Source: Paenibacillus sp. FSL K6-1330 (GTDB taxonomy: Bacteria; Bacillota; Bacilli; Paenibacillales; Paenibacillaceae). Taken from it: a stretch of 64,000 nt of DNA. Every line of letters begins with the position of its first letter. The first letter of the stretch is position 1. A program made the position numbers and the translations under genes. Below are positions 23,864 through 58,898 of this stretch, piece after piece. The notes below the pieces were generated by a model. The model did no database searches and had not been told where the DNA came from. It worked only from the letters and a program-made list of their open reading frames with translations. The stretch lies in assembly GCF_037976825.1 (NCBI RefSeq), contig NZ_CP150269.1, positions 3,609,501-3,673,500 of the forward strand. The letters are read 5' to 3'.

Positions 23864-23890
23864 AGTTTACATAATAATTAATATGTAACC
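23864..23890 (+). repeat. dif-like palindromic site, copy A
   Basis: A 22-bp palindrome (TTACATA, 8-nt centre ATAATTAA, TATGTAA) sits within a 27-nt block that is 24/27 identical to a second copy at 58872-58898 in the same orientation. The first 11 bases, AGTTTACATAA, equal the XerD-side arm of the B. subtilis dif site as I remember it. The two copies differ mainly in the central bases. It lies between the P450 terminator and the truncated monooxygenase. Confidence 0.6.
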
Positions 23891-23910
23891 AATAAGACTG
23901 CAACATAGTC

Positions 23911-23944
23911 AAAAGGCGAATCCTGTTAGGGATTCGCCTTTTTC
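23911..23944 (-). terminator. Terminator of the P450 gene
   Basis: AAAAGGCGAATCC pairs with GGATTCGCCTTTTT around a short loop (13-bp stem). T-runs exist on both strands. It lies 30 nt after the P450 stop. Confidence 0.85.
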
Positions 23945-23973
23945 ATGGAAGAAGTCATTCATGTTGTTGCACA

Positions 23974-25170
23974 TTAGGCATGAAGTGAAATCGGAATTTC
24001 CTTTACACCGCGGACAATCATACCCGGTCTCCATTCAAGCTCATCGATGTCCCGTTGCAGCTCAAAGTTGGGGTAGCGGTGGAGCAGCGTGTTGATTGCG
24101 ATTTCACCCTCCAGTCTGGCAAGGGGAGCTCCCAGGCAGAGATGAATCCCTTTGCCAAAGGCTAAATGCTGGCTCTTCTCCCGGGTAATATCAAAGATAT
24201 CCGGGTCCTCAAATTGTGAGGCATCGCGATTAGCGGAGTTCAAAGCGATGACAACCAAGTCGCCTTTCTTCATATGAACACCATGAAAATCCATATCCTC
24301 CGCCGCGAAGCGGGAGGTGCTGAATTCAACGGGACCGTTGTAGCGAAGCATTTCCTCAATCGCACCATGAATGAGTTCGGGTTGTTCCTGCAGAAGCTTG
24401 CGTTGTTCGGGATGCTCCAATAAGGCAAGCACACCATTACCGATCAGGTTTACCGTCGTTTCATGACCGGCTATGATCATCAGGGTGACGACGCCATATA
24501 ACTCCTGTTCGGATAAGCGATCACCCTGATTCTCGGCAATGACAAGCTGACTGATCATATCATCGCCCGGCTGTTCGCGAACCTTGGCAAACCAATCCTT
24601 CAAATAAGCGATAAATTCATTCATATGCTGGACGACTTGCTCGTTCATTTCCTGGTTGGAAGCGCCGATGATGGAGTTGGACCATATCCGAAACTTGTCT
24701 TGGTCCTCCGTAGGCACGCCAAGGATTTCACTTATCACGATAATAGGAAGTTTGAACGCATATTCATCAATGAGATCTATGGTTTCTTTGGAGGAGACAG
24801 CATCCAGCAGGTTGTCCGCGATCTCTTGAATATGGTCCCGCATATCCGCAATTCGCTGCGGAGTAAAGCCCTTTTGGACTAATCCGCGAAGCCGTTTGTG
24901 ATCCGGCGGATCGGAGAACAGCATATTAGTGCTGAACACGCTAGTCTGTTCCTGCCCCATTGCTTTAGCGACGTCTTTACTAAATCGGACATCCTTGAGC
25001 GCTTCAACAGCTTCCTCGTAATTGCTGATCAGCCAGCCGAAACGTCCATCGGGAAATTGCAGATTCAGTATGGGATCGCTTTGCCTCAATTTCTCGTATA
25101 CAGGATAAGGGTTATGGGTAAATTCCTTCGTAAACAATGCATTTTTCAGAGATTCGTTCGCATTTGTCAT
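23974..25170 (-). CDS. Cytochrome P450
   Basis: The 398-residue soluble bacterial P450 inserts one oxygen atom into an organic substrate using electrons from a ferredoxin or flavodoxin. The heme-binding loop FGKGIHLCLGAPLARLEG supplies Cys345 as axial ligand. The I-helix oxygen-activating motif is IAGHETT. The ExxR motif is present in altered form near FSTSRFAAEDMDFHG. It resembles the CYP107 group (YjiB/BioI-like). No redox partner or biosynthetic cluster is adjacent. The ATG follows GAGAGGAGA. Confidence 0.94.
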   Translation of the reverse strand: MTNANESLKNALFTKEFTHNPYPVYEKLRQSDPILNLQFPDGRFGWLISNYEEAVEALKDVRFSKDVAKAMGQEQTSVFSTNMLFSDPPDHKRLRGLVQKGFTPQRIADMRDHIQEIADNLLDAVSSKETIDLIDEYAFKLPIIVISEILGVPTEDQDKFRIWSNSIIGASNQEMNEQVVQHMNEFIAYLKDWFAKVREQPGDDMISQLVIAENQGDRLSEQELYGVVTLMIIAGHETTVNLIGNGVLALLEHPEQRKLLQEQPELIHGAIEEMLRYNGPVEFSTSRFAAEDMDFHGVHMKKGDLVVIALNSANRDASQFEDPDIFDITREKSQHLAFGKGIHLCLGAPLARLEGEIAINTLLHRYPNFELQRDIDELEWRPGMIVRGVKEIPISLHA

Positions 25171-25403
25171 ATAGGGTCTCCTCTCGAAAATGATAGTTTC
25201 CTATCCAGTATAAGGGAAGGAGAAGGAGATAACCAATTTACGGATGAAATGCCGACAGTCTCCAAATGATTGTTTTTATCAAACTTGTGATGGGAATGGT
25301 GTTCAAGATTGACTCTAAAAAGTGCCTTTTGGTCTACTGACTATACGTCGTTTTCTTTGTTATATTGGATCATATCTGAAGGGATGAAAGGGGGATTAAA
25401 GCG

Positions 25404-27713
25404 GTGAAATCCGTTTCCGGGGAGAAAGCAGCGCTGCTGGTTCGATTTTTTATACCGTATGCTGTCATTTTGGTGGGCTCCCTATTGGTTGGATGGTTTG
25501 CTTATGGGAAGACTGCAGGTCTTATCGAAAGCGAGACGGTAAGAAGCACCTCCGCCGCTCTGCAGCAAATCCAGGAAGCGCTGGATCAGAGATTCGCTGA
25601 AATCGAGAACATGGCACGACAGATGTCGAGCGAATCGAAGGTGCTGTCTTTTCAATTTGAGAAAGAACCGTTTGTCGGAACAGGTCCTTACCGTCTATGG
25701 GATTTGGAAAAGAGTTTGTTTAATTACAAATTGTTCAATCATTTCATATTGGATTATTACATTGCTTACAGGAACAGCAACATGATCGTTTCACCTCGTA
25801 AGGTGTATACGGCGGACCAGTATTATCGTTTGCAGCTGCGCTATGACGACCAGTCATTAAGCGAGTGGAAGCAAGCTCTGTTTGGGCAGTATCATTATAA
25901 AACGTATGCCCCGGGCCGTTCGGTCGTGTATGAAGGCAAACCTTACTCGGTTGTCAGCTATATGCAATCCTTCGGGAATAAAATGAGCAGCGGGGTTGTT
26001 ACTGTACTGATTAACAACATGCAGATTCAGGACATGCTTCGCAAAGTCGATCCGGAACAAGAGGGTTTTGCCTACATAGCGGATCAGAACGGCAACTTGA
26101 TCAGTTCCATAGGTTTGAAAGAACCGGATATTGTGAAAGCGCTTCCCAAACGAGGGGGCTACTCCCATATCCAATTGGGCGGACAGGAAATGCTGGTGAC
26201 GCAATCCACGTCCAAATACAATGGCTGGAGCTATGTATCCGCTCAACCGAAATCCGTGGTGCTGCAAAAGGTGAATTATATTAAACAGCTGACATTGACG
26301 ATCTTTATTACAGCTCTTCTGCTGGGGTTTGGGATCGCCGGTTATTTTGCATATCGAAGCAGCAGACCATTCCTTAAGATCCTCCAGCTTCTGCCGTCAT
26401 CCTCACGGGATGCAAAACATGTGGTTTCTCGTAACGCGGTTGATTATATCGGACATTCCGTGTCCGAGCTGATTGAAAGTCATGATACGCTAAAGGAACG
26501 GTTGGAAGAGCAGATTCCGATGCTGCGAAATGTCGTGGTTGACAGGCTTCTGAAGGGTAGCTTCACGTCGATGCAGGAGATAGAGGCTGCCATGGAACAC
26601 GCACAAGTCCAGCTTCGGGGATCTCACCATGCGGTTGCGCTTCTTCATATTCGGGGATATCAGGAGCCGTTTATGGAAGAGATGCTGATGGAGCTCGATA
26701 TTGTAAAAATCAACCTCCGCGACCGGCTTCAAGCATTATGCGGGGAGGAGGTGCTGCTGCATGATTTTGGTGAAAACCAATTGGTCCTGATCCTGTCGGG
26801 AACGGCAGTAGATAATGCGGATTTTATGACACAGATGCGAGCGAATATACGGGTAATTTACGAGCAATTGAGCGGAATCTCAGATACAGGCCTGTATATG
26901 GCTGTAGGCGAGTGCCAGTCCAGCATTGCTGAGTTATACCGTTCCTACGGGGAGGCCAGGTTTGTGCTTCATCATGCAGGATGGAGCGAGAAGGCTCCTA
27001 TCTTATATCATGCTGAGATGGAAACGCCGGCCTTCTCCTATTATTACCCGGCCGATGAAGAGATGAGGTTGATCCAGCTTGTAAAGGCAGGCAATGTGGA
27101 TGAGACGCAGCAGTTGCTGCTGCAGATCAAGGAGAAGAACAGGTCGGAGCGGCAATTGCCGATGGCCGTGGAGAAGCTCCTTGCCCAGGAACTTAGCGGT
27201 ACCTTAATGAAATGCTGCGAACCCACAGGGAAAGATGGAAGCGGCAGAACGGAGGAAATGGAAGCCGTCATCCGAGCATTAAATCCGGTTCTGCCCCCAG
27301 CCGAAGCCATGAACATACTCTATGCTGCTTTTATTCGGCTCTGTCGGAAAAACGAGGAGAGGAAGAAGAGCCATAATGACCATTTAACGAGCCGACTGCT
27401 TACCTATATCGAGAGGCACTATGGGGAAAGTGATTTGAGTTTAACCGCGCTCGCCCGGGAAACACGCACCTCTGAGGCTTATGTATCTTACTTCTTTAAG
27501 GAGCAAACAGGCTTGAATTTCTCGGACTATCTGGAGCAACTCCGAATGGATGAGGCGAAGCGGGAATTGGCGTCAAGCGACAGGCCGGTAAGTGACATTG
27601 CTGCTTCTGTTGGCTATCTCTCACTCAACACCTTCAGCCGTGCGTTTAAACGGGTAAACGGCATTAGCGCGACCGAGTATAGACGTCTTCAACGCGCAGA
27701 AGAACATGCTTAA
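25404..27713 (+). CDS. Membrane-bound AraC-family transcriptional regulator
   Basis: The 769-residue protein combines an N-terminal membrane helix (about 12-32), an extracellular sensor of about 260 residues, a second helix (about 295-318), a long cytoplasmic linker and a C-terminal AraC-type pair of helix-turn-helix motifs (about 660-765: LTALARETRTSEAYVSYFFK and VSDIAASVGYLSLNTFSRAF). Such one-component regulators are typical of Paenibacillus and sit next to sugar ABC operons, which they activate on sensing extracellular sugar. It lies directly upstream of permease and binding-protein genes. The GTG start follows AAAGGGGG. Confidence 0.92.
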   Translation: MKSVSGEKAALLVRFFIPYAVILVGSLLVGWFAYGKTAGLIESETVRSTSAALQQIQEALDQRFAEIENMARQMSSESKVLSFQFEKEPFVGTGPYRLWDLEKSLFNYKLFNHFILDYYIAYRNSNMIVSPRKVYTADQYYRLQLRYDDQSLSEWKQALFGQYHYKTYAPGRSVVYEGKPYSVVSYMQSFGNKMSSGVVTVLINNMQIQDMLRKVDPEQEGFAYIADQNGNLISSIGLKEPDIVKALPKRGGYSHIQLGGQEMLVTQSTSKYNGWSYVSAQPKSVVLQKVNYIKQLTLTIFITALLLGFGIAGYFAYRSSRPFLKILQLLPSSSRDAKHVVSRNAVDYIGHSVSELIESHDTLKERLEEQIPMLRNVVVDRLLKGSFTSMQEIEAAMEHAQVQLRGSHHAVALLHIRGYQEPFMEEMLMELDIVKINLRDRLQALCGEEVLLHDFGENQLVLILSGTAVDNADFMTQMRANIRVIYEQLSGISDTGLYMAVGECQSSIAELYRSYGEARFVLHHAGWSEKAPILYHAEMETPAFSYYYPADEEMRLIQLVKAGNVDETQQLLLQIKEKNRSERQLPMAVEKLLAQELSGTLMKCCEPTGKDGSGRTEEMEAVIRALNPVLPPAEAMNILYAAFIRLCRKNEERKKSHNDHLTSRLLTYIERHYGESDLSLTALARETRTSEAYVSYFFKEQTGLNFSDYLEQLRMDEAKRELASSDRPVSDIAASVGYLSLNTFSRAFKRVNGISATEYRRLQRAEEHA

Positions 27714-27875
27714 TCTAAAGAAATGCACAGTGCATGATTGATGAATAACAGCCCATTCTAAAATTCTGAATAATCGACCGGGAACATGAAGATTTACGCT
27801 GATCCACGCAGCTGTATATACTCCAATCACGGACCGCACCCGGGACGAATCCATTGAAGATTGGAGTGGTAGCCG

Positions 27876-28784
27876 CTGAGTGGCTGGAAGAGCATCATCC
27901 GTAGCTGGCAGTTGTATGCGCTTTTTTTTCTTCCGCTGCTGTACATCATTATTTTCAAGTATGTGCCGATGTACGGCGCGCAAATTGCGTTTAAAGAGTT
28001 CAACGTCACGAAGGGGATCAACGGAAGTCCATGGGTAGGATTTACCCAGTTCGAACGCTTCTTTGAATCGCATGAATTCTGGCGATTGCTGAAGAATACG
28101 TTCTCCATCAGCTTGTACACACTGATAGCCAGTTTCCCGTTTCCCATTATGCTTGCGCTTGGACTGAATTATGTAAGGAACCGGCGCTTCAAGAACACCG
28201 TCCAAATGGTTACATACGCGCCTTATTTCATCTCTCTGGTCGTGCTGGTGGGCTTGATGCTGCAGTTTATGGATCCAAGAACGGGACTCATCAATACGAT
28301 GCTCGGCTGGATCGGCCTGGGTCCGTTTCATTTCATGGCGGAGGCCTCCTGGTTTCAGTCGATTTATGTATGGTCCCATATTTGGCAGAATGTCGGGTTT
28401 TCCTGCATCATTTTTTTGGCAACGCTTTCAGGGATTGATCCGGCTCTCCATGAAGCAGCCGTCATGGATGGAGCCACGAAGATGCAGCGGATGCGCCACA
28501 TTGATCTCCCGGGCATCATGCCCATCGCCATGATTTTACTCATTCTGAATACGGGGCAAATGCTCGAGACCGGCTTCGAAAAAATTCTGTTAATGCAGAA
28601 TGCACTGAATTTGCGTTCATCCGAAGTCATTGACACGTACGTGTACAAGGTGGGATTGGTATCCCAAGCAATGAATTTTTCATATGCCACGGCGATTGGG
28701 TTGTTTAAAGCGATCATCGGTTTCGTGCTGCTGTTGATCGTGAATCAAACGGCCAAAAAGCTGAAGCAGGAGAGTCTATGGTAA
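27876..28784 (+). CDS. Sugar ABC transporter permease, LplB type
   Basis: This inner-membrane permease has six helices and the EAA loop DPALHEAAVMDGATKMQRMRHI, which docks on the ATPase. The start is unusual: an in-frame TAG at 27870 limits the gene, no ATG or GTG lies before the first helix, and TTG at 27912 has no ribosome site and would remove the cytoplasmic N-terminus. CTG at 27876, 9 nt after GGAG, gives a normal N-terminus. It is followed by the second permease after 16 nt. No ATPase gene is present; relatives use a shared MsmX-type ATPase. Confidence 0.85.
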   Translation: MSGWKSIIRSWQLYALFFLPLLYIIIFKYVPMYGAQIAFKEFNVTKGINGSPWVGFTQFERFFESHEFWRLLKNTFSISLYTLIASFPFPIMLALGLNYVRNRRFKNTVQMVTYAPYFISLVVLVGLMLQFMDPRTGLINTMLGWIGLGPFHFMAEASWFQSIYVWSHIWQNVGFSCIIFLATLSGIDPALHEAAVMDGATKMQRMRHIDLPGIMPIAMILLILNTGQMLETGFEKILLMQNALNLRSSEVIDTYVYKVGLVSQAMNFSYATAIGLFKAIIGFVLLLIVNQTAKKLKQESLW

Positions 28785-28800
28785 GGAAGGGGGGACTTGT

Positions 28801-29697
28801 ATGCAATCACCTGCCATGAAGGAATCCGGCTCGGATCGCGTTTTTACGGTGGTCAACTACGCGATGTTATCCGTTTTCCTAATCATTGTGTTGTATCCGC
28901 TGATATATGTAGTCAGCGCCTCATTCAGTTCCAGCAGCGCGGTCTTGTCGGGAAAGGTATGGCTGTGGCCCGTCGAACCGACCCTCGAAGGCTACCGTGC
29001 GGTATTCAAAAATACGATGGTTGCCAAAGGCTTTATGAACACGCTGTTCTATACGCTGGCAGGCACGATGATCAATCTCATTCTGTCCGTCATGGCAGCA
29101 TACCCGTTGTCACGCAAAGATTTTCGGGGTAGAAACATGTTCATGCTGCTGTTCGTGTTCACGATGCTGTTTAATGGAGGGTTGATCCCGACCTACCTGC
29201 TGGTGAAGGATCTCGGCATGATTGACACGATATGGTCGATGCTGATTCCGGGGGCGCTGTCGGTGTGGAATGTCATCATCATGCGCACGTATTTCCAGAC
29301 GACCATCCCGCAGGAACTGCTGGAGGCTTCACAGCTGGACGGCTGTACGGATTTTCGCTTCCTGTGGCGCATCGTGCTGCCTCTTTCGGGTCCGATCTTG
29401 GCTGTCATTGCCTTGTTCTATGCCGTTGGACACTGGAATCAATATTTCAACGCGATGATTTATTTGAAGAGCGCGGATTTGTACCCGCTCCAGCTCGTGC
29501 TTCGCGATATTCTGGTGCAGAACGAGGTGAATATCGAAATGCTCGGCGATGCCAAAACCGCTGCGGCCCGGCAAGGGCTGCGGGAGCTGCTGAAATATTC
29601 GCTGATCGTGGTGACCTCGGTACCGCTGTTGATCGTATATCCGTTTTTGCAGAAATTTTTTGTCAAAGGGGTCATGATCGGATCATTAAAGGGATAA
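28801..29697 (+). CDS. Sugar ABC transporter permease, YtcP/MalG type
   Basis: The 298-residue permease is the partner of the upstream LplB-type protein. Six helices are visible, with the EAA loop PQELLEASQLDGCTDFRFLW and the family end motif QKFFVKGVMIGSLKG. The ATG follows AAGGAAGGGGGG. The substrate is probably an oligosaccharide taken from the binding protein encoded next. Confidence 0.93.
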   Translation: MQSPAMKESGSDRVFTVVNYAMLSVFLIIVLYPLIYVVSASFSSSSAVLSGKVWLWPVEPTLEGYRAVFKNTMVAKGFMNTLFYTLAGTMINLILSVMAAYPLSRKDFRGRNMFMLLFVFTMLFNGGLIPTYLLVKDLGMIDTIWSMLIPGALSVWNVIIMRTYFQTTIPQELLEASQLDGCTDFRFLWRIVLPLSGPILAVIALFYAVGHWNQYFNAMIYLKSADLYPLQLVLRDILVQNEVNIEMLGDAKTAAARQGLRELLKYSLIVVTSVPLLIVYPFLQKFFVKGVMIGSLKG

Positions 29698-29727
29698 AAC
29701 ATCCATATTTCAGGAGGGCGGGACGTT

Positions 29728-31398
29728 ATGAGAAAAAGAACACGGGTGATCATGGGGGCATTCACCGCATTCAGTATCCTTCTTGCAGGTTGTACGGGTT
29801 CACAGAGCCCGAAGGGCTCGGATGAGACGCCAAATGCGGGTACCGAGCCAATCGCCTTATCCGCACCGGGGACCTATCCGCTGGTTCAAGAGAAAACCAC
29901 GTTAAAGGTGATGGTGCGGGGAAATCCGCTGGTCGAGAATTTCGAAACGAATGAATTCACCAAATGGTATGAAGAAAAAACGAATGTGCACATCGAGTGG
30001 GAGGTCGTTCCGGAGCAGAGCATGCAGGAGAAGCTGAATCTCGTTCTTGCCAGCGAGGATTATCCCGACGTCATTATGGGTTTAAATATTTCGCCGGCGC
30101 AGCAGATGATATACGGCTCGCAAGGCGCCTTTCTTCCGTTGAATGATTTGATTGAGAAGCAGGGGCCGAATACGAAGAAAATATTCCAGAATAACCCGGA
30201 GATCCAATCCACAATAACGGCGCTGGACGGCAATATTTATGCGCTTCCGGAAGTGAATGAATGCTACCACTGTTCCATGAGCCAGAAAATGTGGATATAC
30301 GAGCCTTGGCTGAAGAAACTCAATTTGGAGATGCCGGAAACCACGGATGAGTTGTACGAGGTGCTGAAAGCTTTTAAAGAACAAGACCCGAACGGGAATG
30401 GCGTCCAGGATGAAATTCCGTTGTCGATTTCACCGAAATCCTGGAGCTCTTCCATTGATGCGTTCCTGTTGAACTCCTTCATCTATAATCCGGTTTACGG
30501 CTCAAGTTACAAGCATATATTCATAAAAGACGATAAGCTTGACGTCGCCTTCAACAAACCGGAGTGGAGGGAAGGCTTGCGGTACATGAATAAGCTGTAC
30601 GCTGAGGGGCTGCTCGCTCCGGAGTCATTCACGCAGGATGACAATCAGCTGATCCAGATCGGCGAGAACCCCGATAACGTACTTCTTGGCGCTTCAACCG
30701 GCGGGCACCAGGGTATATTTACCCAACTCCTCGGCGAAAGCGGAAGATGGTTGGAATATAAGACGGTACCGCCGCTCAAAGGACCGAACGGAGTTCGCTA
30801 TGCTGCTCTGGATTCCACCGGATTGAATCCGGGTGCCTTTGTCATCACGAAGAAGGCCAAGCATCCTGAGCTTGCCCTGCGATGGGCGGATGGGCTGTAC
30901 GAACGGGAGCATACGCTGCGAAGCGTGTATGGTCGCCCGGACGAGGAATGGCGGGAAGCAAAGGACGGAGAGATCGGCATCAACGGAGAGCCCGCGGTCT
31001 GGTCAGAGCTGAAGTCTTACGGCACGGTACAGAATATAGCCTGGATTCAAACCGGTCCGAGTCTGCGGACGAATGATTTCCGCCTGAGCGCCGTTGCCAA
31101 AGGAGACGACGATCTAGAAGTCATTCTGTACAATGAAACGAAAAATAAATACGAACCTTACAAACCTACGGATGTCAGCACCGTGCCGCCGTTATTTCTA
31201 ACGAACGAGCAGGCGTCCGAGGTAGCGGATCTGTCCAAGACGATCAATGATTATGTTGACGAAATGATGGCCCGCTTCGTGATCGGCGATGCCGATCTGG
31301 ATAAGGACTGGGATGGTTACGTTAAGCAATTGGAAGCAATGAACGTAGCGCGCTATCTGGAAATTTATCAGGAAGCGTATGATGGAAGAAGCAAATAA
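29728..31398 (+). CDS. Sugar-binding lipoprotein of ABC transporter (LipO/YtcQ type)
   Basis: The 556-residue extracellular solute-binding protein (family 1) has a signal peptide with lipobox LLAGC (Cys22), so it is anchored to the outer face of the membrane. The body has family features: EWEVVPEQSMQEKLNLVLAS, DYPDVIMG and a C-terminal DADLDKDWDGYVKQLEAMNV. It delivers sugar to the two permeases encoded upstream (30-nt gap). The ligand cannot be read from the sequence. Confidence 0.93.
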   Translation: MRKRTRVIMGAFTAFSILLAGCTGSQSPKGSDETPNAGTEPIALSAPGTYPLVQEKTTLKVMVRGNPLVENFETNEFTKWYEEKTNVHIEWEVVPEQSMQEKLNLVLASEDYPDVIMGLNISPAQQMIYGSQGAFLPLNDLIEKQGPNTKKIFQNNPEIQSTITALDGNIYALPEVNECYHCSMSQKMWIYEPWLKKLNLEMPETTDELYEVLKAFKEQDPNGNGVQDEIPLSISPKSWSSSIDAFLLNSFIYNPVYGSSYKHIFIKDDKLDVAFNKPEWREGLRYMNKLYAEGLLAPESFTQDDNQLIQIGENPDNVLLGASTGGHQGIFTQLLGESGRWLEYKTVPPLKGPNGVRYAALDSTGLNPGAFVITKKAKHPELALRWADGLYEREHTLRSVYGRPDEEWREAKDGEIGINGEPAVWSELKSYGTVQNIAWIQTGPSLRTNDFRLSAVAKGDDDLEVILYNETKNKYEPYKPTDVSTVPPLFLTNEQASEVADLSKTINDYVDEMMARFVIGDADLDKDWDGYVKQLEAMNVARYLEIYQEAYDGRSK

Positions 31399-31413
31399 AG
31401 GAGGGATTGCAGG

Positions 31414-32286
31414 ATGAGAGTTGGCGTAAGCACCTACAGTTTGCTGCCCGCTATCCGTGCAGGAGAGATGACGGTGCTGGATGTGGTGGATTGGATCGCG
31501 GAGAACGGCGGTCAGCACATGGAGATCGTGCCCTACGGATTTACGCTGGAGGACAATCCCGGGCTTGCCGATGCGGTGCGTGAGCGGGCGGCGAAAGTCG
31601 GCATCGCGTTATCCAACTATTCGATGCCCGCTAATTTTGTCCAGGAGAGCCGGGACGCCTTCGATGTCGAGGTTGAGCGGATCAAGCGCCATGTGGATAC
31701 GGTGAATCGGTTAGGAATGAAGCATATGCGTCATGACGTGACGGCGTTCACGCTGCCGCCGGAGAAGATGGGCATTGATTATGTGGAAACCCATCTGGAT
31801 ATGATTGTGGAAGGATGTCGGCTCATAGCAGATTACGCAGACTTTTATGGTATTACGACAACAATCGAGAACCATGGCGTGAGCGTACAGGCGAGCGATC
31901 GTGTACAGCGTGTGCTTCAGGCGGTCGACCGCCTGAACTTCAAGACGACGCTGGATATCGGGAACTTCCTATGCGTTGACGAGCAGCCGCTTGTTGGTGT
32001 GAAACGAAATTTACCGTTTGCCTCGCTCATCCATGTGAAAGACTTCTATTATCGTCCGTTTGATCAGGACCCGGGTGGGGGGAAATGGTTCAGAACATCA
32101 CACGGCAATTACCTTCGAGGCTCGATCTTCGGCCAGGGTGATATCGATGTTCGCCGGATTCTGCGTCTCATTAAGACTGAAGGTTATGACGGAGATATTA
32201 CGCTGGAATTTGAGGGCATGGAGGAGTGCCGGGAAGGAACCCGGCTGGGTCTGGACAATCTGAAGCGGTTATGGGATGAAGCATAG
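31414..32286 (+). CDS. Sugar phosphate isomerase/epimerase, xylose-isomerase-like TIM barrel
   Basis: The 290-residue protein of the AP endonuclease-2/xylose-isomerase fold has metal-site strands TTTIENHG (Glu), TTLDIGNFL (Asp), LIHVKDFYY (His, Asp) and ITLEFEGMEE (Glu). Members interconvert keto/aldose sugars or inosose-like compounds. It is the last gene of the 25.4-32.3 kb sugar operon (16-nt gap, GGAGGG ribosome site), so it probably acts on the imported sugar. The exact reaction is unknown. Confidence 0.9.
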   Translation: MRVGVSTYSLLPAIRAGEMTVLDVVDWIAENGGQHMEIVPYGFTLEDNPGLADAVRERAAKVGIALSNYSMPANFVQESRDAFDVEVERIKRHVDTVNRLGMKHMRHDVTAFTLPPEKMGIDYVETHLDMIVEGCRLIADYADFYGITTTIENHGVSVQASDRVQRVLQAVDRLNFKTTLDIGNFLCVDEQPLVGVKRNLPFASLIHVKDFYYRPFDQDPGGGKWFRTSHGNYLRGSIFGQGDIDVRRILRLIKTEGYDGDITLEFEGMEECREGTRLGLDNLKRLWDEA

Positions 32287-32615
32287 GTGGTTGCGTTACG
32301 GAAATTATATGCTCATAGCGAAATATACATGGAATAACAGAACAGCCTGAAAGTCGCGCTTAGCGCGACTTTTTTATTTTATGAGACCTTGAGTTAGAGG
32401 CGTTTATTTCATCATATGAACTAATGACTTGGCACTTGGATATAGATTGGTTGTTTTTCTCATTGCATCAGATTGGCAATGATTTTACATTCGGTTCGAA
32501 TTCATATAAGATATAACGTGGATATTGTTTATCTGCTTTAGTCGTGAATGGATAGATGCGTATGTAGTTTAGATAACGAACGAACTGATATTTTCGTGAA
32601 TTGAGGTGCTGTTAG
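32287..32615. other. 329-bp intergenic region before the Rrf2 gene
   Basis: Apart from the terminator at 32350-32378 this AT-rich stretch shows no gene. It must hold the promoter of the Rrf2-oxidoreductase pair; several TA-rich hexamers occur around 32500-32560 but none has a good partner at the right spacing. Confidence 0.5.
32350..32378 (+). terminator. Rho-independent terminator of the sugar operon
   Basis: AAAGTCGCGCT and AGCGCGACTTT form a compact GC-rich hairpin followed by TTTTATTTT, 64 nt after the isomerase stop. Confidence 0.93.
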
Positions 32616-49772: not shown

Positions 49773-49791
49773 GGGGCGGTCAATCCGCCCC
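49773..49791 (+). other. Intra-operon stem-loop between mannosidase and permease genes
   Basis: GGGGCGG and CCGCCCC form a perfect 7-bp GC stem with a 5-nt loop. No T-run follows, so it is unlikely to stop transcription. It may mark an mRNA processing or stabilising point between enzyme and transport genes. Confidence 0.7.
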
Positions 49792-49812
49792 ACTGAAAGG
49801 AGAGGTGGGAAT

Positions 49813-50739: not shown

Positions 50740-50751
50740 GGAGGTGACGTT

Positions 50752-51648
50752 ATGAAACGTAAATGGTCTTTATTCTCGGTGTTCAATTATACCGTTCTCG
50801 CTATCATCGGATTTTCCATGATCTATCCGTTTATTTACATTTTGGCGTATTCCCTTAACGACGGAAAGGATTCGATGATGGGGGCGATTTATTTTTTGCC
50901 CCGTAAATTCACGCTGGAGAACTACGCGCAGGTATTCGATAATGCCCGCATCTGGAAGGCGTACCAAATTACGCTCATGCGCACCGTGCTGGGGACATTC
51001 CTTCATGTTGTGCTGAGTACGCTCATGGCCTATGCACTTTCCAAAAAGACATTGCCGGGCCGCTCTTTTTTCACCTTTTACATCTTTTTGCCGACGATTT
51101 TCAGTGCCGGGTTCATTCCGTTCTTCATCACGCTGCAAAAACTGCATCTGATCAACAGCTTCTGGGTGTATGTTCTGCCGATGCTGTTCAATTTCATGCA
51201 CATCGTCATTATCCGAACCTTTCTGCAAGGCATACCCGAAGAACTGGAAGAGTCTGCTCGCATTGACGGGTATGGCGATTTTCAAATCTTCGTGCGGATT
51301 ATACTGCCGCTTTCGGGACCGGTGCTTGCCACCATCTCCCTGTTCATCGGGGTGGCCCATTGGAATGATTGGTTCTCAGGTGCTTACTACGTATCCAACA
51401 AAGACTTGATCCCGGTGCAGACCCTCTTGCAAGAAATGCTTACGGAAGCTGAGGCACTGTCCAATTCGATGCAGCGAGCCGCGCAGCAGGGCGGGCAGAC
51501 GATTGGCGGAACCAGCGGCGCTGGTGCTACTCCGGAATCACTCCGGATGGCCTTGCTTGTCATTACGGTCTTTCCGATCTTGTGCATTTATCCGTTCTTA
51601 CAACGATATTTCGTAAAGGGGGTTATGATCGGTTCGGTTAAAGGTTAG
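50752..51648 (+). CDS. Sugar ABC transporter permease, YtcP/MalG type (second system)
   Basis: The 298-residue partner permease has the EAA loop PEELEESARIDGYGDFQIFV and end motif QRYFVKGVMIGSVKG. The stretch between helices 5 and 6 has a Gly/Ala/Gln-rich insertion (AAQQGGQTIGGTSGAGATPE) that the first system's permease lacks. AAGGAGG precedes the ATG. Confidence 0.94.
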   Translation: MKRKWSLFSVFNYTVLAIIGFSMIYPFIYILAYSLNDGKDSMMGAIYFLPRKFTLENYAQVFDNARIWKAYQITLMRTVLGTFLHVVLSTLMAYALSKKTLPGRSFFTFYIFLPTIFSAGFIPFFITLQKLHLINSFWVYVLPMLFNFMHIVIIRTFLQGIPEELEESARIDGYGDFQIFVRIILPLSGPVLATISLFIGVAHWNDWFSGAYYVSNKDLIPVQTLLQEMLTEAEALSNSMQRAAQQGGQTIGGTSGAGATPESLRMALLVITVFPILCIYPFLQRYFVKGVMIGSVKG

Positions 51649-51720
51649 GTCATCCTGACCCGGAATTTGTCTAAAGCTTTACCAAGATCATTGATATCCA
51701 TATTCCAGGAGGCGATAGGT

Positions 51721-53379
51721 TTGAAGAGGATTTGGTCGAAAGGCGTATCCGCATTGCTCGTGTCCATCATGGTTGGAGGTTTGCTGATCAGCTGCACGAA
51801 TTCATCAGGGAACGGAGATAACGGAGAAGGGGCAGAAGGAGAGAATTCATACAAACTCAAAATACTGCACAATTGGAATGGTTCAAACGGTTCGGATGCC
51901 ATGACGCCCGTGGAGGAAGTCATCAAGGAGAAAACCGGCGTTACTCTCGAATGGGAATATACGAAAGGCAGTGAGACGGAGAAGGTAAACCAGATCTTCG
52001 CCACGCAGGATTTGCCGGATATTTATACAGGGCCAGCCTGGGGCGGAGAATTGGATGGCATCATTAAGGCAGCTAAAGAGGGACAATTGGTGGATATATC
52101 GGACAAGCTAAAGGATTATCCGAACCTGTCCAAATCCATCGCGGAAGAAAATGTGCCGCCGGCATTATATGAGAAAGCGATTGATGCTTACGAAGGCAAA
52201 AAATATTTGATGCTGCAAAATCAGCCGGCCACAAACGAAGACGGCATGGATTGGCTCTATGGCTTCTACGTGCGCAAAGACATCGCCGAGAAAGTTGGCG
52301 TCGATCCGCAATCCGTTGTCACGAAGGACGATTTCTACAACTTCCTCAAAAAAATCAAGGATGCCAACCTGCAAGAGAACGGCCAGCCGGTCTTTCCGCT
52401 GGGCGGTTTCAGTAACGGCTGGGCTGTTGGCATCGGTAACACCATGTTCTACTCGGGTGCAAGCTATGTAGACAAGGGCGATGGCACGGTTGAGCGTGAC
52501 TTTTTTACTAAAGGCTATGAAGAATACACCCTGTTTTATCGGAAGCTGGTTGAAGAAGGGCTGCTGGACCCGGAAGCCTTTACCCAGACAGACCCGATCG
52601 CCAAGGAAAAAATCAACCAAGGCCGCATCGCCATCCTCGCCGCACACTATCCGGCCATTCTGGATGCCTCCAAGGAGTATGCCGCTTCGCATCCTGGAAG
52701 CGAGTACATTCCTCTAGGCCCATTGGAGCGCGCTGACGTCGAGCCGGACAGGCCGGTTGATCTCGGAATCCAAGGCAACAACGTGACGGCGATCACGAAG
52801 AACTGTAAAGGCGCTTGCGTTGACGCAGCGCTGAAGTTCCTGGACTTCATGGCCTCGGACGAAGGCTTCATGCTGGCCAGATATGGAGTTCAGGGCGTTC
52901 ACTGGGACATGAAAGATGGCAAGCCGGTTGCCAACCAGGAATGGTTTGACAAATTCAGCACGGACACCAACATGAAGCTGCGCAAGAACGAAGGCATCAG
53001 CATCGGCCTGGAATCACTAACGGGTCTTGATCGCATCAATTCGGTAGCTGGCGGAGACATCTGGGCCGAACAGGAACGGCTTGACGCCATGGAGAATGCC
53101 CGCAAAATCCTCCGACCGAACGGCATTCACGTGATTACCGCCTATAACCCGGGCGATGTTATCACGAAGGCGCCGGAATGGGAAATGCTGAAGCCATCGA
53201 TGGATCGAATGGGGGATGCCTGGAAGGAAGCGGTATTCGCCAAATCGGATGAAGCGGCGATGAGCATCATTAATGAACTACGAGAACAGCTCCGCAAGAC
53301 CGGATATGAGAAAGCGATGCAGTTCACGAACGAAAATCTGAAGGGGAAAGACGTGGTAACCGTTCAGATGCCGAACTGA
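51721..53379 (+). CDS. Sugar-binding lipoprotein of ABC transporter (second system)
   Basis: The 552-residue extracellular binding protein has a lipobox GGLLISC (Cys25). TTG at 51721 is chosen because AGGAGG is 8 nt upstream and the signal peptide then starts properly with Lys-Arg; the frame is open to 51667, but that start has no ribosome site. Body motifs include TGVTLEWEYTKGSETEKVNQ and GQLVDISDKLKDYPNL. It captures the glycan fragment handled by the enzymes of this locus, presumably a mannose- or rhamnose-containing oligosaccharide. Confidence 0.93.
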   Translation: MKRIWSKGVSALLVSIMVGGLLISCTNSSGNGDNGEGAEGENSYKLKILHNWNGSNGSDAMTPVEEVIKEKTGVTLEWEYTKGSETEKVNQIFATQDLPDIYTGPAWGGELDGIIKAAKEGQLVDISDKLKDYPNLSKSIAEENVPPALYEKAIDAYEGKKYLMLQNQPATNEDGMDWLYGFYVRKDIAEKVGVDPQSVVTKDDFYNFLKKIKDANLQENGQPVFPLGGFSNGWAVGIGNTMFYSGASYVDKGDGTVERDFFTKGYEEYTLFYRKLVEEGLLDPEAFTQTDPIAKEKINQGRIAILAAHYPAILDASKEYAASHPGSEYIPLGPLERADVEPDRPVDLGIQGNNVTAITKNCKGACVDAALKFLDFMASDEGFMLARYGVQGVHWDMKDGKPVANQEWFDKFSTDTNMKLRKNEGISIGLESLTGLDRINSVAGGDIWAEQERLDAMENARKILRPNGIHVITAYNPGDVITKAPEWEMLKPSMDRMGDAWKEAVFAKSDEAAMSIINELREQLRKTGYEKAMQFTNENLKGKDVVTVQMPN

Positions 53380-53414
53380 TGACTTCCATCATCAAGGGAG
53401 CCCTGTTTAATACG

Positions 53415-53460
53415 AAAGGTTTCGCAGCACCTTGGCAACCAAGGGGGCGGAGCCTTTTGT
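53415..53460 (+). terminator. Hairpin after the binding-protein gene, partial terminator
   Basis: AAAGGTTTCGC pairs with GCGGAGCCTTT (two G-T pairs), with an inner CCTTGG/CCAAGG hairpin and a short TTTTG run. Such hairpins after binding-protein genes often protect the mRNA and lower expression of later genes. Confidence 0.65.
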
Positions 53461-53552
53461 GCTCTCCTTGCCATAGTTTCTAAAGTTTCCAAACCGCAAG
53501 GAGATGGAAGGGATTATCAAGAATTAACAAAACATGAAGGAGTTGAAGTTAA

Positions 53553-55565
53553 ATGATAACAAAATTCAGACCTCCATCCGTTCCGCTGGTGACCGTAGAT
53601 CCTTATTTCAGCGTATGGTCGGCTGCGGATCATCTCTACGATGATCATACCCGTCATTGGACGAACAAGATCCAAGGCATGGTCGGCCTTGCGATCATCG
53701 ATGGCATGCCTAGACGATTTATGGGGAAGGCAGCAACAGCGGGTTCAACAGACCGTCCCGAGCTCGAAATTCTTCAACAAACCGATCTGACAGTTGAACC
53801 GGTAACCACCCGTTATACGTTTCAAGGGGAAGGCATTGAGCTTCAGGTTAAGTTCACCACGCCTTTATTACTGGATGATCTTGATCTGTTATCCCGGCCT
53901 GTAACCTATGTGACTGTTCAGGTTCGTTCGATGGATGGGCGTGAACATGATGTAAAGATCTACTTCGATGTCACAGGCGAGTGGTGCGTGCATACACCGG
54001 ATCAGCAAGTGACCTGGGAGCATCGCGTAATCGATGGACAATTGAATATGATGTCGATGGGTACTGTCGAACAGCCCATCCTGCAGCGTGCCGGAGATGA
54101 TACTCGAATCGATTGGGGGTATATGGTTCTGGCGGTTCCCCGTACGGAACGGATTCAGACGGTGATTCATTCTGTAGCGAGCCGGGAGTCGTATGTCGGA
54201 TCCGGTCTGTTACCGTCCGAAGACGATCCGCAGAAGCCGAGGGCCGTATCCAATCATACTCCTGTTATGGCAGTCGAAATCGATCTAGGCCAGGTACGAG
54301 AAGAATGGGTATCCGAGTATCTGATGCTTGCGTATGACGATATTCATGCCATCGAATATTTTAACCAGCCGCTGGATGCTTACTGGAAGCGAAACGGATT
54401 GACGTTCCACGATATGCTGTTACAGTCCGCCGCCCAATATGAAGACATCATGCAGTTATGCGAGAGCTTCAATCGCGAGCTGATGGCGGAGAGCCTTGCC
54501 GCAGGCGGCGAACAATACCGGGATATCTTGGCATTGACGTATCGACAGGCGATAGCCGCGCATAAATTAGTTGCAGATGAAGCGGGGCATGTGTTGTTTT
54601 TTTCCAAGGAGAATTTCAGTAACGGATGCATCGCTACGGTCGATGTCAGTTACCCGTCGATTCCGCTGTTCTTAAGATACAATCCTGAACTGGTCAAGGG
54701 TATGATGCGCCCGATTTATAAGTATGCCATGAGCCCTGATTGGCCGTTTGACTTTGCGCCTCATGACGTGGGAACGTACCCCAAAGCTAACGGTCAGGTG
54801 TATGGCGAGAATAAGCTGGAATACCAGATGCCGATTGAGGAATGCGGGAATATGCTCTTGATGGCTGCTGCGGTGTGCAAGTATGAAGGGAATACGGATT
54901 TTGCCCGGGAACACTGGGAGCCTCTTACCGCATGGGCGGGGTATTTACTGCAGCATGGGCTCGATCCGGAAAATCAGCTGTGCACGGATGATTTTGCCGG
55001 ACATTTGGCGCATAATGCGAATTTGTCCATTAAAGCGATCCTGGGCATTGCTGCGTATTCGTACATGTGTGACCAGCTGGGCTTGCAGGAAGGAGCCTCT
55101 TATCCTGCAGCCGCACGAAATATGGCAAATGAGTGGATGTCCATGGCCGATGCAGGAGACCATTATAAACTTACGTTTGACAGTGCCAACGATTCCTGGA
55201 GCATGAAATACAATCTGGTATGGGATCGTCTGCTGGAATTAAACCTGTTTCCAAAAGAAGTTGCAGCTCAAGAGCTGGAATATTATAAGCAGAAACAAAA
55301 TCGTTACGGTCTTCCGCTGGATAGCCGTGATACGTATACAAAAGCGGATTGGCTCGTATGGTGTGCCTCCATGAGTGCTACCCAATCCCAGTTTGAAGCC
55401 ATGATTGCGCCCTTATGGGATTTCATGAATGAAACCGCTGCTCGCGTTCCGGTGACCGATTGGTATGACACGATGAGCGGAAAGCAGATGAATTTCCAGA
55501 ACCGCTCCGTCGTCGGTGGATTTTTCATCCAATTGCTGATGTCCCGGTCTGGATTAAATTCGTGA
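53553..55565 (+). CDS. DUF5127/DUF4965 glutaminase-like protein
   Basis: The 670-residue protein matches the glutaminase A-like family (DUF4964/5127 N-terminal, DUF4965 and DUF1793 helical C-terminal). Seen are PPSVPLVTVDPYFSVWS, RHWTNKIQGMVGLAIIDG, FFSKENFSNGCIATVDVSYP, PFDFAPHDVGTYPKANGQVY and KADWLVWCASMSATQSQF. Despite the name, bacterial members lie in glycan loci and have an (alpha/alpha)6 barrel like glycosidases. No signal peptide is visible, so it is probably intracellular. AAGGAG lies 10 nt before the ATG. The GH106-like gene follows after 18 nt. Confidence 0.88.
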   Translation: MITKFRPPSVPLVTVDPYFSVWSAADHLYDDHTRHWTNKIQGMVGLAIIDGMPRRFMGKAATAGSTDRPELEILQQTDLTVEPVTTRYTFQGEGIELQVKFTTPLLLDDLDLLSRPVTYVTVQVRSMDGREHDVKIYFDVTGEWCVHTPDQQVTWEHRVIDGQLNMMSMGTVEQPILQRAGDDTRIDWGYMVLAVPRTERIQTVIHSVASRESYVGSGLLPSEDDPQKPRAVSNHTPVMAVEIDLGQVREEWVSEYLMLAYDDIHAIEYFNQPLDAYWKRNGLTFHDMLLQSAAQYEDIMQLCESFNRELMAESLAAGGEQYRDILALTYRQAIAAHKLVADEAGHVLFFSKENFSNGCIATVDVSYPSIPLFLRYNPELVKGMMRPIYKYAMSPDWPFDFAPHDVGTYPKANGQVYGENKLEYQMPIEECGNMLLMAAAVCKYEGNTDFAREHWEPLTAWAGYLLQHGLDPENQLCTDDFAGHLAHNANLSIKAILGIAAYSYMCDQLGLQEGASYPAAARNMANEWMSMADAGDHYKLTFDSANDSWSMKYNLVWDRLLELNLFPKEVAAQELEYYKQKQNRYGLPLDSRDTYTKADWLVWCASMSATQSQFEAMIAPLWDFMNETAARVPVTDWYDTMSGKQMNFQNRSVVGGFFIQLLMSRSGLNS

Positions 55566-55583
55566 AAAGACAGGTGATGCATT

Positions 55584-58500
55584 GTGAATAACGTTAATGT
55601 TCAGGAGGAAGTAGTCCATAAGGATCTAACGCAGCTGAAGGTGCAATTCGAGAATCCGGACGCCACGTATCGCCCGCAGCCGTTCTGGTTCCTGAATCAT
55701 GAACTCACGAAGCCGGAGCTGGAAAGCCAGATACAATCGATGTATGAAGCGGGTGTCGGCGGTGTTGTTCTGCATGCTCGTCATGGGATGCAAACCTCGT
55801 ACCTGTCACCGGCATTTATGGAAGCGTTGGAGTTCTGTACCCTGGAGTGCGAGAAGCGCAGCATGGTGGTCTGGCTGTACGATGAGGACAATTGGCCAAG
55901 CGGAACGCTGGGCGGCAAGCTGACCCGTCAGCATCCGGAATATCGCATGCGATACTTAAGGGTCGAAGAGAAAAGATATACGCACGACGGACAGCAGGAA
56001 GGCTTGAGGCTGGACTTTGCACGCTGTGATCATAATGAGCTTATAGCCATTCTGGCTTATCGCGCTGTGGAGCAGGACGGGGAATGGCTGCTCTGTGATA
56101 AACCCGAGGATCTCACGCATGAATGGGGAGGAGATTGGACGCCGACAACGGAGGATTCTTATATCGTGCTGGCCTGCTGGTCCTGCGAGATCGCGGAAGG
56201 CATCACGTTTGCTAAAGGGTACTACTTGGATACGCTGAATCCGGAAGCTGTCCAGGCTTTCATCCGGCTGTCCTATGAGCCGTTTCAGTCTTTGCAGAAA
56301 TACTTTGGCACAACGATTCAAGGGGTATTTACCGACGAACCCGGGCTTATGATCCACGACGGTTTCTTCGGGGTGGAAGCGATCCGCACGACCGTTCACG
56401 ATGTAGACGCTACCCTGCCGGGCATGGTCTTCGCTTGGACAGAAGGGATGGCGGAGCGATATCAGCAAGAGAATGGGTATGATCTCATCCCGCGGTTAGG
56501 CGCATTGTTATATAACATGGCAGACGGCAGCCGGTCAACGAAACAGCAATACTATGATACGATTACGCGCTGGTATGTTGAGGGTTATCATCATGCGATT
56601 CGTACATGGTGTGAGCGGCATGGACTGCTGTACATCGGTCATACGCTCGAAGAGCCGGTCTGGGGACAGGCGAGATCGCAAGGCAATCAGACCCGGGTGC
56701 TGCAGCAGTTTCACTACGCAGGTGTGGATTATTTAACGCCTGGCATCGGTACGAAGGAGAATCCGCATCGGATTGTGTCCGTGAAGACAGCCGCTTCTGT
56801 CGCGCAGTTGAACAGCAAGGCACGGGTGATCTGCGAATCGTTTGGCGCAAGCGGTCACGGCTATTCCATGCGTCAACGGCGACTCGATGCGAATTTCATG
56901 GCATTCCTGGGCGTTAATCTGTTTATCCCGCATGCGTTCTATTACTCGTTTGCCGGGTATCGAAAGACCGATTTCCCGCCGACGGAATTCAAACACGCGC
57001 CTCATTGGCCGCATTATCGTGCTTTTGCTGATTATCTCGGACGACTGAGTCTGCTCGGCGCGAGCGGTAAACGTATGCCGGAGGTTCTTCTGCTGTCGCC
57101 CATCCATACGGTATACGAAAATATGTTCGTATCCGGTCAATCGAATAAACATCCCGCTTCCGATGTTCTGTTCTCGCTCCTGTCGGATCACATGCTTCGG
57201 AGATCCATTGATTACGACTATGTAGACGAGTGTCAGCTTCGCGAAGCCACCCTTATTGATGGGGAAGGGGTGCGATTTAACCAGGGTGGGAACATATATT
57301 CGGTTTTGGTTATGCCTGAGATTGAGGTCATGTCGAAGGACATTGCCGCACTTCTTGTTGCCTATGTTAAGCAAGGGGGTACTCTCGTTGCTGTAGGAGC
57401 GGTACCGCGGCATAGCGAGTGCTTGCATCATGATCCGGAATTGGCGAAGCATGTGCATGCGCTGTTTGGTTCGACACCGCAGCACGGGGCATTACGCCCC
57501 GTTGGCAAAGGGTATAGTCTGTTTTATTCCCTAGAGAATACGCCTCTTGATGATCCATTGGACTCGTTGTGTGAACGTATAAGCGGGTTATTAAGGAACC
57601 CCTCTGTTTTACGATGGAAGTTGATCGAAGGACAACATGAGGATTTGATTAGTGTAGAACGTGTGTTCGGAGATCGGGTATATGTGTGGCTGATGAACTG
57701 GTCAGAGAAGCCCGTTTCCATGAAGCTTGATGCAAGGGGGGCGAAGTACCGAATCGAAGAATGGGACTTGGAATGCGGGAACATACGCCGGTTAGCCAGC
57801 GATTCCGTTCTTATCTATGCACCTGGAGAGCTGCGAGTTCTCTCGGTTGTACCCGAGGAGTGCCCAATCGGTACAGCGGAACAAGTGTTCGATATGACAC
57901 GGGATTCCACGGATGTCATCGTTCTTGAAGAGCTGTGGCGTTTCCGGACACTTGAACCCAACGTTTGTTTACTGGACCAATGGCAGGTTACGCTCAATGA
58001 CAGAAAATCCAGGATGAACGCAACGATGCCTGGGCAAGTGAATACGTATCGTACAACGTTTACCTTGACCCAGGAATTGATGGAACGATTGCAATCTCCG
58101 AGTTATCGAGTTCATTCAAATCCATCGCATGACGACGAATCCCATAAAATGTTGTTGATTCTGGACGATGTGGAGCAGAATATCCCATCCCATATCGGCT
58201 TCCTGCAGCGCAGGCGCAATCTTGAAATCTTCGTGAATGGCGTAAGGCAGAATGCGCTGCAGCCCTCTAACTGGCAGGATCAACACTATAGTAGCGTGGA
58301 TATCACACCTCATCTATTGGCAGGCGAGAACGAACTTGAAATTCTGACGGTTTCATTGCTGGAACCGATGCCGGCGATTTCATTCCCTGCATTTTTGATT
58401 GGACCCTTTGTTATAGAAGATCGAGAAGATCGGATGAGGCTAAACGCGAGTTCAGAACATATGTTTGGTTATTGGTCTTCTGCCGGCTATCCTTATTATG

Positions 58501-58808
58501 CGGGAGCGGGAGAATACTCGCAGCAAGTGGATCTGACCCAAGTTAGCTTGGCTCCAGATGAGGAATTATGGCTGGAAGCTGACGATATTAGGGAGACGGC
58601 TTGTTTATATGTAAATGATATGCAGGCAGGAATCCGATTGTGGCCGTCTTATCACTGGAACATCACGCCATATGTTGAGCAGGGGAATAATCACATTACC
58701 ATCCGTGCCGCCAATACGCTGGAGAATTTATATGGTAAGTCTGCTTTACCTTCAGGGGTGAATGGAAGGGTAAAGTTGGTTCATCGAACTTTATCAAAAA
58801 GAATGTAA
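55584..58808 (+). CDS. GH106-like glycoside hydrolase (alpha-L-rhamnosidase type)
   Basis: The 1074-residue protein has the start of a large TIM-barrel hydrolase of the GH106 type: ATYRPQPFWFLNHELTKPEL, YEAGVGGVVLHARHGM, VVWLYDEDNWPSGTLGGKLT and IQGVFTDEPGLMIHD, where acidic residues are candidate catalytic ones. A GATase-like domain (about 500-620) and a C-terminal beta-sandwich with FVNGVRQNALQPSNWQD follow. Many proteins of this class are annotated only as glycosyl hydrolases, so rhamnosidase activity is a guess. GTG start with AGGTGAT upstream. It is last in the operon, before a strong terminator. Confidence 0.85.
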   Translation: MNNVNVQEEVVHKDLTQLKVQFENPDATYRPQPFWFLNHELTKPELESQIQSMYEAGVGGVVLHARHGMQTSYLSPAFMEALEFCTLECEKRSMVVWLYDEDNWPSGTLGGKLTRQHPEYRMRYLRVEEKRYTHDGQQEGLRLDFARCDHNELIAILAYRAVEQDGEWLLCDKPEDLTHEWGGDWTPTTEDSYIVLACWSCEIAEGITFAKGYYLDTLNPEAVQAFIRLSYEPFQSLQKYFGTTIQGVFTDEPGLMIHDGFFGVEAIRTTVHDVDATLPGMVFAWTEGMAERYQQENGYDLIPRLGALLYNMADGSRSTKQQYYDTITRWYVEGYHHAIRTWCERHGLLYIGHTLEEPVWGQARSQGNQTRVLQQFHYAGVDYLTPGIGTKENPHRIVSVKTAASVAQLNSKARVICESFGASGHGYSMRQRRLDANFMAFLGVNLFIPHAFYYSFAGYRKTDFPPTEFKHAPHWPHYRAFADYLGRLSLLGASGKRMPEVLLLSPIHTVYENMFVSGQSNKHPASDVLFSLLSDHMLRRSIDYDYVDECQLREATLIDGEGVRFNQGGNIYSVLVMPEIEVMSKDIAALLVAYVKQGGTLVAVGAVPRHSECLHHDPELAKHVHALFGSTPQHGALRPVGKGYSLFYSLENTPLDDPLDSLCERISGLLRNPSVLRWKLIEGQHEDLISVERVFGDRVYVWLMNWSEKPVSMKLDARGAKYRIEEWDLECGNIRRLASDSVLIYAPGELRVLSVVPEECPIGTAEQVFDMTRDSTDVIVLEELWRFRTLEPNVCLLDQWQVTLNDRKSRMNATMPGQVNTYRTTFTLTQELMERLQSPSYRVHSNPSHDDESHKMLLILDDVEQNIPSHIGFLQRRRNLEIFVNGVRQNALQPSNWQDQHYSSVDITPHLLAGENELEILTVSLLEPMPAISFPAFLIGPFVIEDREDRMRLNASSEHMFGYWSSAGYPYYAGAGEYSQQVDLTQVSLAPDEELWLEADDIRETACLYVNDMQAGIRLWPSYHWNITPYVEQGNNHITIRAANTLENLYGKSALPSGVNGRVKLVHRTLSKRM

Positions 58809-58826
58809 TATTATGCGATACCTACG

Positions 58827-58867
58827 AAAATGACTACAGCCGAGTTCAGGTCGTAGTCATTCTTTTA
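58827..58867 (+). terminator. Rho-independent terminator of the glycan operon
   Basis: AAATGACTAC pairs with GTAGTCATT around a loop of about 14 nt, followed by CTTTTATT. Confidence 0.85.
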
Positions 58868-58871
58868 TTAT

Positions 58872-58898
58872 AGTTTACATAATATATAATATGTAATC
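58872..58898 (+). repeat. dif-like palindromic site, copy B
   Basis: A 22-bp palindrome (TTACATA, centre ATATATAA, TATGTAA) within a block 24/27 identical and parallel to the one at 23864-23890. Its first 17 bases, AGTTTACATAATATATA, match the XerD arm and centre of B. subtilis dif as remembered; the other arm differs from the XerC arm and is instead a mirror of the XerD arm. It lies between the glycan operon's terminator and the PHP gene. Confidence 0.6.

Follow-up and report, generated by a model that had tools for sequence, protein, structure and literature searches.

Which system do two nearly identical palindromes belong to that lie 35 kb apart near the replication terminus of Paenibacillus sp. 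FSL K6-1330? Both are found in a 64,000-bp stretch of its chromosome (hereafter the window; G000:C1:3609501-3673500), in a genome (G000) of a single contig of 7,427,485 bp. An initial annotation had taken them for dif-like sites bracketing a region integrated by Xer recombinases. The computational analysis described here points elsewhere: the two palindromes, A and B, and a third, C, outside the window, are probably XerD-binding terminus sites equivalent to the XDS of Bacillus subtilis, where SMC would be unloaded from the chromosome. The three sites are the following, A and B being given in window positions and C in genome coordinates.

23864..23891, + strand: site A, a palindrome with XerD-type arms, AGTTTACATAA-TAATTA-ATATGTAACCA
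58872..58899, + strand: site B, a palindrome with XerD-type arms, AGTTTACATAA-TATATA-ATATGTAATCT, the closest of the three to the skew peak
G000:C1:3555922-3555949, orientation opposite to A and B: site C, an exact copy 53.6 kb left of the window

The blocks that start at 23864 and 58872 share 24 of 27 bases in direct orientation, exactly as first described. The symmetric unit of A, B and C is nevertheless longer than the 22-bp palindrome reported initially and spans 28 bp, with an 11-bp arm, a 6-bp centre and a second 11-bp arm. All 11 bases of the strong arm match the XerD arm of B. subtilis dif, which agrees with the earlier assignment of the sites to the Xer type. The centre of B is that of B. 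subtilis dif as well, and B as a whole differs from the dif sequence at 7 of 28 positions. Read from the strong arm, the centres are TAATTA in A, TATATA in B and TATTTA in C. Differences mainly in the central bases had been interpreted as expected of recombinase cores; on the contrary, the fact that all three centres differ speaks against recombination between the sites.

An exact pattern of the 25-bp core occurs twice in the window, at A and B, so that the statement that there is no third copy was correct within the window and failed beyond it, because of C. Exact matches are confined to these three places in 7.43 Mb, far from the dozens of promoter copies that, according to the initial annotation, would have refuted its reading. 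When up to three mismatches in the 25-bp core were allowed, the window contained three matches (A, B and B on the other strand) for 0.02 expected, and none of 100 shuffles of the window reached three. In the whole genome the same tolerance yielded 13 matches against 9 for a backward-read control, hence only near-exact matches are meaningful. A profile built from the sites of 30 relatives was also used to scan 440 kb: B scored 31.2, C 30.0 and A 29.4, while the next place scored 12.6 and the best place in the reversed sequence 23.9.

The cumulative GC skew of the chromosome climbs until 3,684,901 and then drops (3,685,001 in 500-bp steps), and the window ends 11.4 kb short of this peak, that is, beside the terminus. 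All three sites are located left of the peak, B at 16.5 kb, A at 51.5 kb and C at 129 kb. Three sites within 112,450 bp of a 7.43-Mb chromosome would arise by random placement with a probability of about 0.0007. The octamer GAGAAGGG, the SpoIIIE signal, changes strand in the same region, being found within the 440 kb 10 times forward and never in reverse left of 3.68 Mb, and once forward and five times in reverse to the right. Three copies, the nearest of which is 16.5 kb from the peak, are unlike a single-copy dif at the skew switch.

A comparison with relatives had been proposed as the deciding check, and it proved to be so, since one genome of the same species (G070) retains the interval between A and B and such sites recur across Paenibacillus. 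In G070, B is identical, A carries one changed base in its centre and has both arms identical, and C keeps its strong arm and centre with three changes in the weaker arm. The strong arm is therefore unchanged at 11 of 11 bases in all three sites of both genomes, while the centre of A or the weaker arm of C varies. Across the genus, the 25-mer with at most two mismatches was matched in 96 of 100 genomes, and the 28-mer with at most three mismatches gave one to five sites in each of 18 chosen Paenibacillus genomes (62 sites in total), compared with four places in four of these genomes for the control. Among 27 sites of eight Paenibacillus genomes, from which G070 was excluded as the same species, 33 pairs of sites can be formed within a genome, and the centre is the same in only 2 of them.

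The sites also keep company with xerS. In 12 of the 18 genomes, counted on one main contig each, 30 of 38 sites lie less than 75 kb from a XerS gene, where 1.1 would be expected; G006, G015, G016, G024, G029 and G070 were excluded from this count for their split assemblies, and the main contig stood in for the genome in G013 and G020. The eight misses are site C, one of four sites in G007, both sites of G028 and all four of G033.

Eight tyrosine recombinases were matched in the genome of strain FSL K6-1330, namely XerD, two XerS, one XerA-like protein, two others (393 and 411 aa) and two fragments below the cut-off. The XerD protein is just at threshold, with 329.7 bits for a cut-off of 329.6, and the XerS encoded at 3,683,806 scores 380.5 bits for a curated cut-off of 267. 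The first catalytic Arg of XerD is replaced by Lys in 8 of 16 Paenibacillus genomes, this one included, the other positions being kept. A XerC over the cut-off was found in none of the 16, again including this genome; second genes in G019, G008 and G033 score 261, 250 and 219 bits and could be diverged XerC. The XerS gene and the sequence in front of it form the following candidate module.

G000:C1:3683718-3684873: XerS gene with difSL-like site, some 10 kb beyond the right end of the window, at the GC-skew peak
G000:C1:3683718-3683742: difSL-like site, directly upstream of the XerS gene (3,683,806)

The difSL-like stretch, whose layout by eye resembles that of difSL (arms as given in PMC5357621), lies 1.2 kb from the skew peak, nearer than B. 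It is also present in G070 and, by eye, is near-identical to the stretch upstream of xerS in two Anaerobacillus genomes. It was not recognised in seven other Paenibacillus, several of which share a different stretch. A second XerS paralog of the same genome lies 0.65 Mb left of the skew peak (G000:C1:3030010-3031074, L067), and the stretch was not recognised by eye upstream of it. Because the difSL-like site beside the XerS gene sits at the skew peak, it is the better candidate for dif, and A, B and C are probably not the dif of this genome. In the suggested comparison of the palindromes with the genome's own dif, the dif candidate is a different sequence beside xerS. Together, XerS and the difSL-like site are a candidate dimer-resolution module, and the combination of this separate dif candidate with no XerC over the cut-off is consistent with palindromes that act independently of XerC and dif.

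Outside the genus, the same association was observed. Exact palindromes in the genome collection amount to 106 stretches, of which 52 are from Paenibacillus, 18 from Streptococcus, 5 from Gemella, 3 from Lactococcus and 28 from others. The 54 stretches outside Paenibacillus fall in 46 genomes, and XerS exceeds its cut-off in 23 of these (18/18 plus 5/28), in particular in Streptococcus, Lactococcus and Gemella, for a base rate of 4 in 149 genomes drawn across the phylum, the present one included. In 18 genomes of Streptococcus, Lactococcus, Gemella, Peribacillus and Anaerobacillus the pattern is found one to five times each, with no control match, and every one of them has a XerS over the cut-off. 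The nearest site is less than 6 kb from the XerS gene in 17 of the 18; the exception, at 155 kb, is Peribacillus. The genome of Peribacillus loiseleuriae (G116) carries a XerS copy with four stop codons (G116:C1:2633684-2634721) and an intact XerS on another contig, and has XerC and XerD as well.

In all 12 genomes of Streptococcus (7), Lactococcus (3) and Gemella (2) that were read from their open reading frames (ORFs), a XerD-like gene is followed by scpA and then scpB; a Pfam check of sampled calls confirmed 5 of 5 ScpA and 3 of 3 ScpB. The 12 XerD-like proteins have all lost catalytic residues: other residues stand in place of the first catalytic Arg and both His, and of the catalytic set only the second Arg and a Tyr are kept. 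The two Gemella proteins score below the cut-off of the family used. In Lactococcus hodotermopsidis, a palindrome with two mismatches (G113:C7:51450-51477) lies between the XerD-like gene and scpA and is possibly autoregulatory.

What could the palindromes do, if not recombine? Karaboja et al. (2021) reportedly found that the unloading of SMC by XerD at terminus sites of B. subtilis requires neither catalysis nor XerC nor dif. By analogy, XerD would bind both arms of the palindromes of Paenibacillus, and A, B and C would be the places where SMC-ScpAB, having moved from the origin along both chromosome arms, is removed from the DNA. Strand exchange would not be needed there, hence the 6-bp centres may differ and XerC would not be required. 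The resolution of chromosome dimers would be a separate process, carried out by XerS at the difSL-like site that directly precedes its gene. XerD is read as the partner because it is common to the lineages that bear XerS and fits the arm. Compared with the XDS of B. subtilis as described, the sites are alike in their terminus position, their XerD arm, their plurality and perhaps the dispensability of XerC and dif; they differ in being near-perfect two-arm palindromes in genomes with XerS and no XerC over the cut-off. Passages of PMC12322038, PMC8357415 and PMC10945525 describe the unloading of SMC by XerD near the B. subtilis terminus and name the XDS, the term itself standing in PMC10945525, and it is on this precedent that A, B and C are read as unloading sites of the XDS type. 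A more distant parallel is the matS/MatP system of E. coli, in which, according to PMC8669397 and PMC10945525, the protein bound to dispersed terminus sites removes a SMC-type complex; the protein and the motif are unrelated, and E. coli has more sites. The literature on XerD, which covers the XDS of B. subtilis as well as Streptococcus and Lactococcus, includes PMC9733580 and PMC2731167. In the literature searched, no paper was found that links XerD and a dif site to Paenibacillus, or that brings together XerS and a recombinase in this genus, although the idea may be in print elsewhere.

Several points weigh against the reading of A, B and C as SMC-unloading sites. XerD binding and SMC unloading at these sites are themselves what we infer from sequence, and in PMC13342612 it is dif that is regarded as the principal place of unloading. 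In 12 of 16 Paenibacillus genomes, the site cluster contains or adjoins the gene of a different tyrosine recombinase of about 304-342 aa, recognised by score and length, which could be the binder, although it is not near the cluster in G000 or G070. One example is G018:C1:3472892-3473719, and the likely equivalent in strain FSL K6-1330, at 3,111,853, is away from the cluster. In G028 and G033 none of the six sites is near a XerS gene, and the 23 of 46 genomes outside Paenibacillus that lack a XerS over the cut-off comprise 18 Clostridia or other Bacillota and 5 members of other phyla. Finally, the sites are left of the skew switch in G000 and G070 but 55-72 kb to its right in G020 and G013 and roughly 0.15-0.3 Mb to its right in G019 and G008, and the switch of G018, G017 and G026 is not inside the 200 kb examined. 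The distance from site to switch being variable, a location in the terminus region holds where the switch was located, whereas a location at the skew switch does not.

It is also conceivable, if unlikely, that the palindromes are targets of XerS or of the XerA-like recombinase and act as a palindromic dif for a single recombinase. The proximity to XerS genes outside Paenibacillus, where the nearest site is sometimes less than 20 bp away, speaks for this reading, and so does the recombinase in or beside the Paenibacillus clusters, with 187-196 bits to the XerC model. However, the streptococci and lactococci examined have a separate site for XerS in front of its gene, difSL, which differs in sequence from A and B (the XerS/difSL system is treated in PMC5357621), and a similar stretch lies directly upstream of xerS here, at the skew peak. 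In strain FSL K6-1330, 444 kb separate the XerA-like gene (3,111,853) from the closest site, G070 has A, B and C but no full-length XerA-like match at E 1e-45, and at the same threshold the gene was not found in seven Streptococcus, Lactococcus and Gemella genomes. The 23 site-bearing genomes without XerS and an arm that equals the XerD arm of B. subtilis dif are further arguments against such targets.

The possibility that B is the chromosomal dif of the lineage, with A and C as spare or relic dif sites, is distinctly unlikely. B has the best profile score, lies closer to the skew peak than A and C and has the centre of B. subtilis dif, and the palindromes share the 28-bp 11-6-11 layout of dif. 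Unlike a dif recognised by XerC and XerD, they are present in three copies, have two XerD-like arms and no XerC-type arm, and differ in their centres; multiple sites with differing centres are moreover the rule genus-wide, no XerC passes the cut-off, and the difSL-like site beside XerS is nearer to the skew peak. In addition, two working dif sites in direct repeat are expected to delete the DNA between them, here 35 kb. When 3.44-3.88 Mb was searched for another dif of the B. subtilis type, the best matches, with seven mismatches, were B and C themselves.

A replication fork trap, in which the palindromes would be Ter sites bound by RTP, is very improbable. RTP is encoded in 30 of 31 Paenibacillus genomes, the present one included, and a few sites around the terminus resemble the RTP/Ter arrangement of B. 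subtilis. Yet RTP was found in none of the 18 site-bearing Streptococcus, Lactococcus, Gemella, Peribacillus and Anaerobacillus genomes, and the best match to the Ter consensus of B. subtilis has six mismatches over the 440 kb. RTP-bound Ter sites were set aside on these two grounds. The rtp gene (G000:C1:4763517-4763867, L075) lies at a great distance from the terminus, 1.08 Mb to the right of the skew peak, which is not the arrangement of B. subtilis, and no shared palindrome was seen by eye upstream of rtp in two of four upstream regions.

The initial proposal that A and B bound a 35-kb region integrated by Xer recombination is highly improbable. It drew on the direct orientation of the two sites and on gene content of an accessory type, the latter being borne out by Pfam: in 20 window ORFs scanned, the interval encodes a P450, a gerA-type operon, glycosidases and two groups of ABC transporter components accompanied by solute-binding proteins. 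The claim that no integrase is present also stood, the window containing none of the eight tyrosine-recombinase matches of the genome. The genes and repeats that flank the sites are listed in window positions; the genes are context outside the system proposed here.

22700..23188, - strand: DUF2243 membrane protein gene, the first annotated gene left of A, with its start 676 bp from A (Pfam PF10002)
23911..23944, unstranded: inverted repeat that resembles a terminator, immediately to the right of A and downstream of the P450 gene, read from the sequence
23974..25170, - strand: cytochrome P450 gene, the first gene right of A (Pfam PF00067)
55584..58808, + strand: Glyco_hydro_106 family gene, the last gene left of B (Pfam PF17132)
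58828..58866, + strand: inverted repeat that resembles a terminator, immediately to the left of B and downstream of the rhamnosidase-type gene, read from the sequence
59074..60675, + strand: ORF of 533 aa that begins 175 bp right of B, with no Pfam match at 1e-8

The integrated region is contradicted by the one same-species genome with which the interval was compared. G070 is collinear with 3,556,086-3,679,160 of this chromosome at about 94-96% identity, in blocks parted by gaps of at most a few kb, and the alignment covers the interval from A to B, its left flank and, beyond B, some 10 kb on the right, with local insertions or deletions. The distance from A to B is 36.3 kb in G070, whose skew peak also adjoins xerS. 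As the interval is collinear in a genome that has all three sites, the sites do not bound a mobile element, and such an element was set aside on this collinearity together with the mismatched centres of A and B (TAATTA versus TATATA). Right of xerS, the common order of the two genomes breaks up. About 400 bp left of A (window 23426-23820) are unaligned, G070 having about 1.2 kb of other sequence, and about 4.5 kb (G000:C1:3679160-3683689) that end just upstream of the difSL-like site are absent from G070, which carries a truncated sigma-like ORF in their place.

Two further observations concern integration. Two such sites of G017 have between them an AT-rich island about 51 kb long (G017:C1, about 3225000-3276400, about 34% G+C in surroundings of 50%), which resembled a Xer element; it was rejected as one since its edges stop 2.1 and 1.4 kb short of the palindromes. 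Five viral contigs (L184-L188) with a perfect palindrome represent one related phage locus, where the palindrome stands beside a terminase-like gene, and no integrase was recognised by eye among the ORFs of one of these contigs.

A transcription terminator or a regulator's operator has practically no chance of being the answer: both A and B adjoin terminator-like hairpins and runs of A and T flank some streptococcal copies, but A-T palindromes form weak hairpins, the arms are sequence-specific, all three copies are at the terminus and the closest annotated start downstream of A is 676 bp away.

Considering the reading of the palindromes as XerD-dependent unloading sites across lineages, a broader hypothesis can be advanced, to which we give even chances. 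In bacteria in which dimer resolution seems to have passed to XerS (streptococci, lactococci, Gemella and Paenibacillus), XerD may have been kept as a dedicated SMC unloader. Its chemistry would have been lost in the first three groups, where its gene lies by scpA-scpB, or perhaps weakened in Paenibacillus, where half of the proteins examined have the change from Arg to Lys, and its targets would be the symmetric palindromes near xerS. If correct, the hypothesis would describe a site-specific recombinase turned into a pure off-loader of SMC. In only a few bacteria is it known how condensin complexes are removed at the terminus. The reading of the palindromes as unloading sites would, if right, provide a simple 28-bp motif for such sites across the genus and into the streptococci, and suggest what the XerD-like protein encoded next to scpAB, with its broken catalytic site, does there. 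It would also imply that evolution has split SMC unloading from dimer resolution, so that the two roles of XerD could be tested apart.

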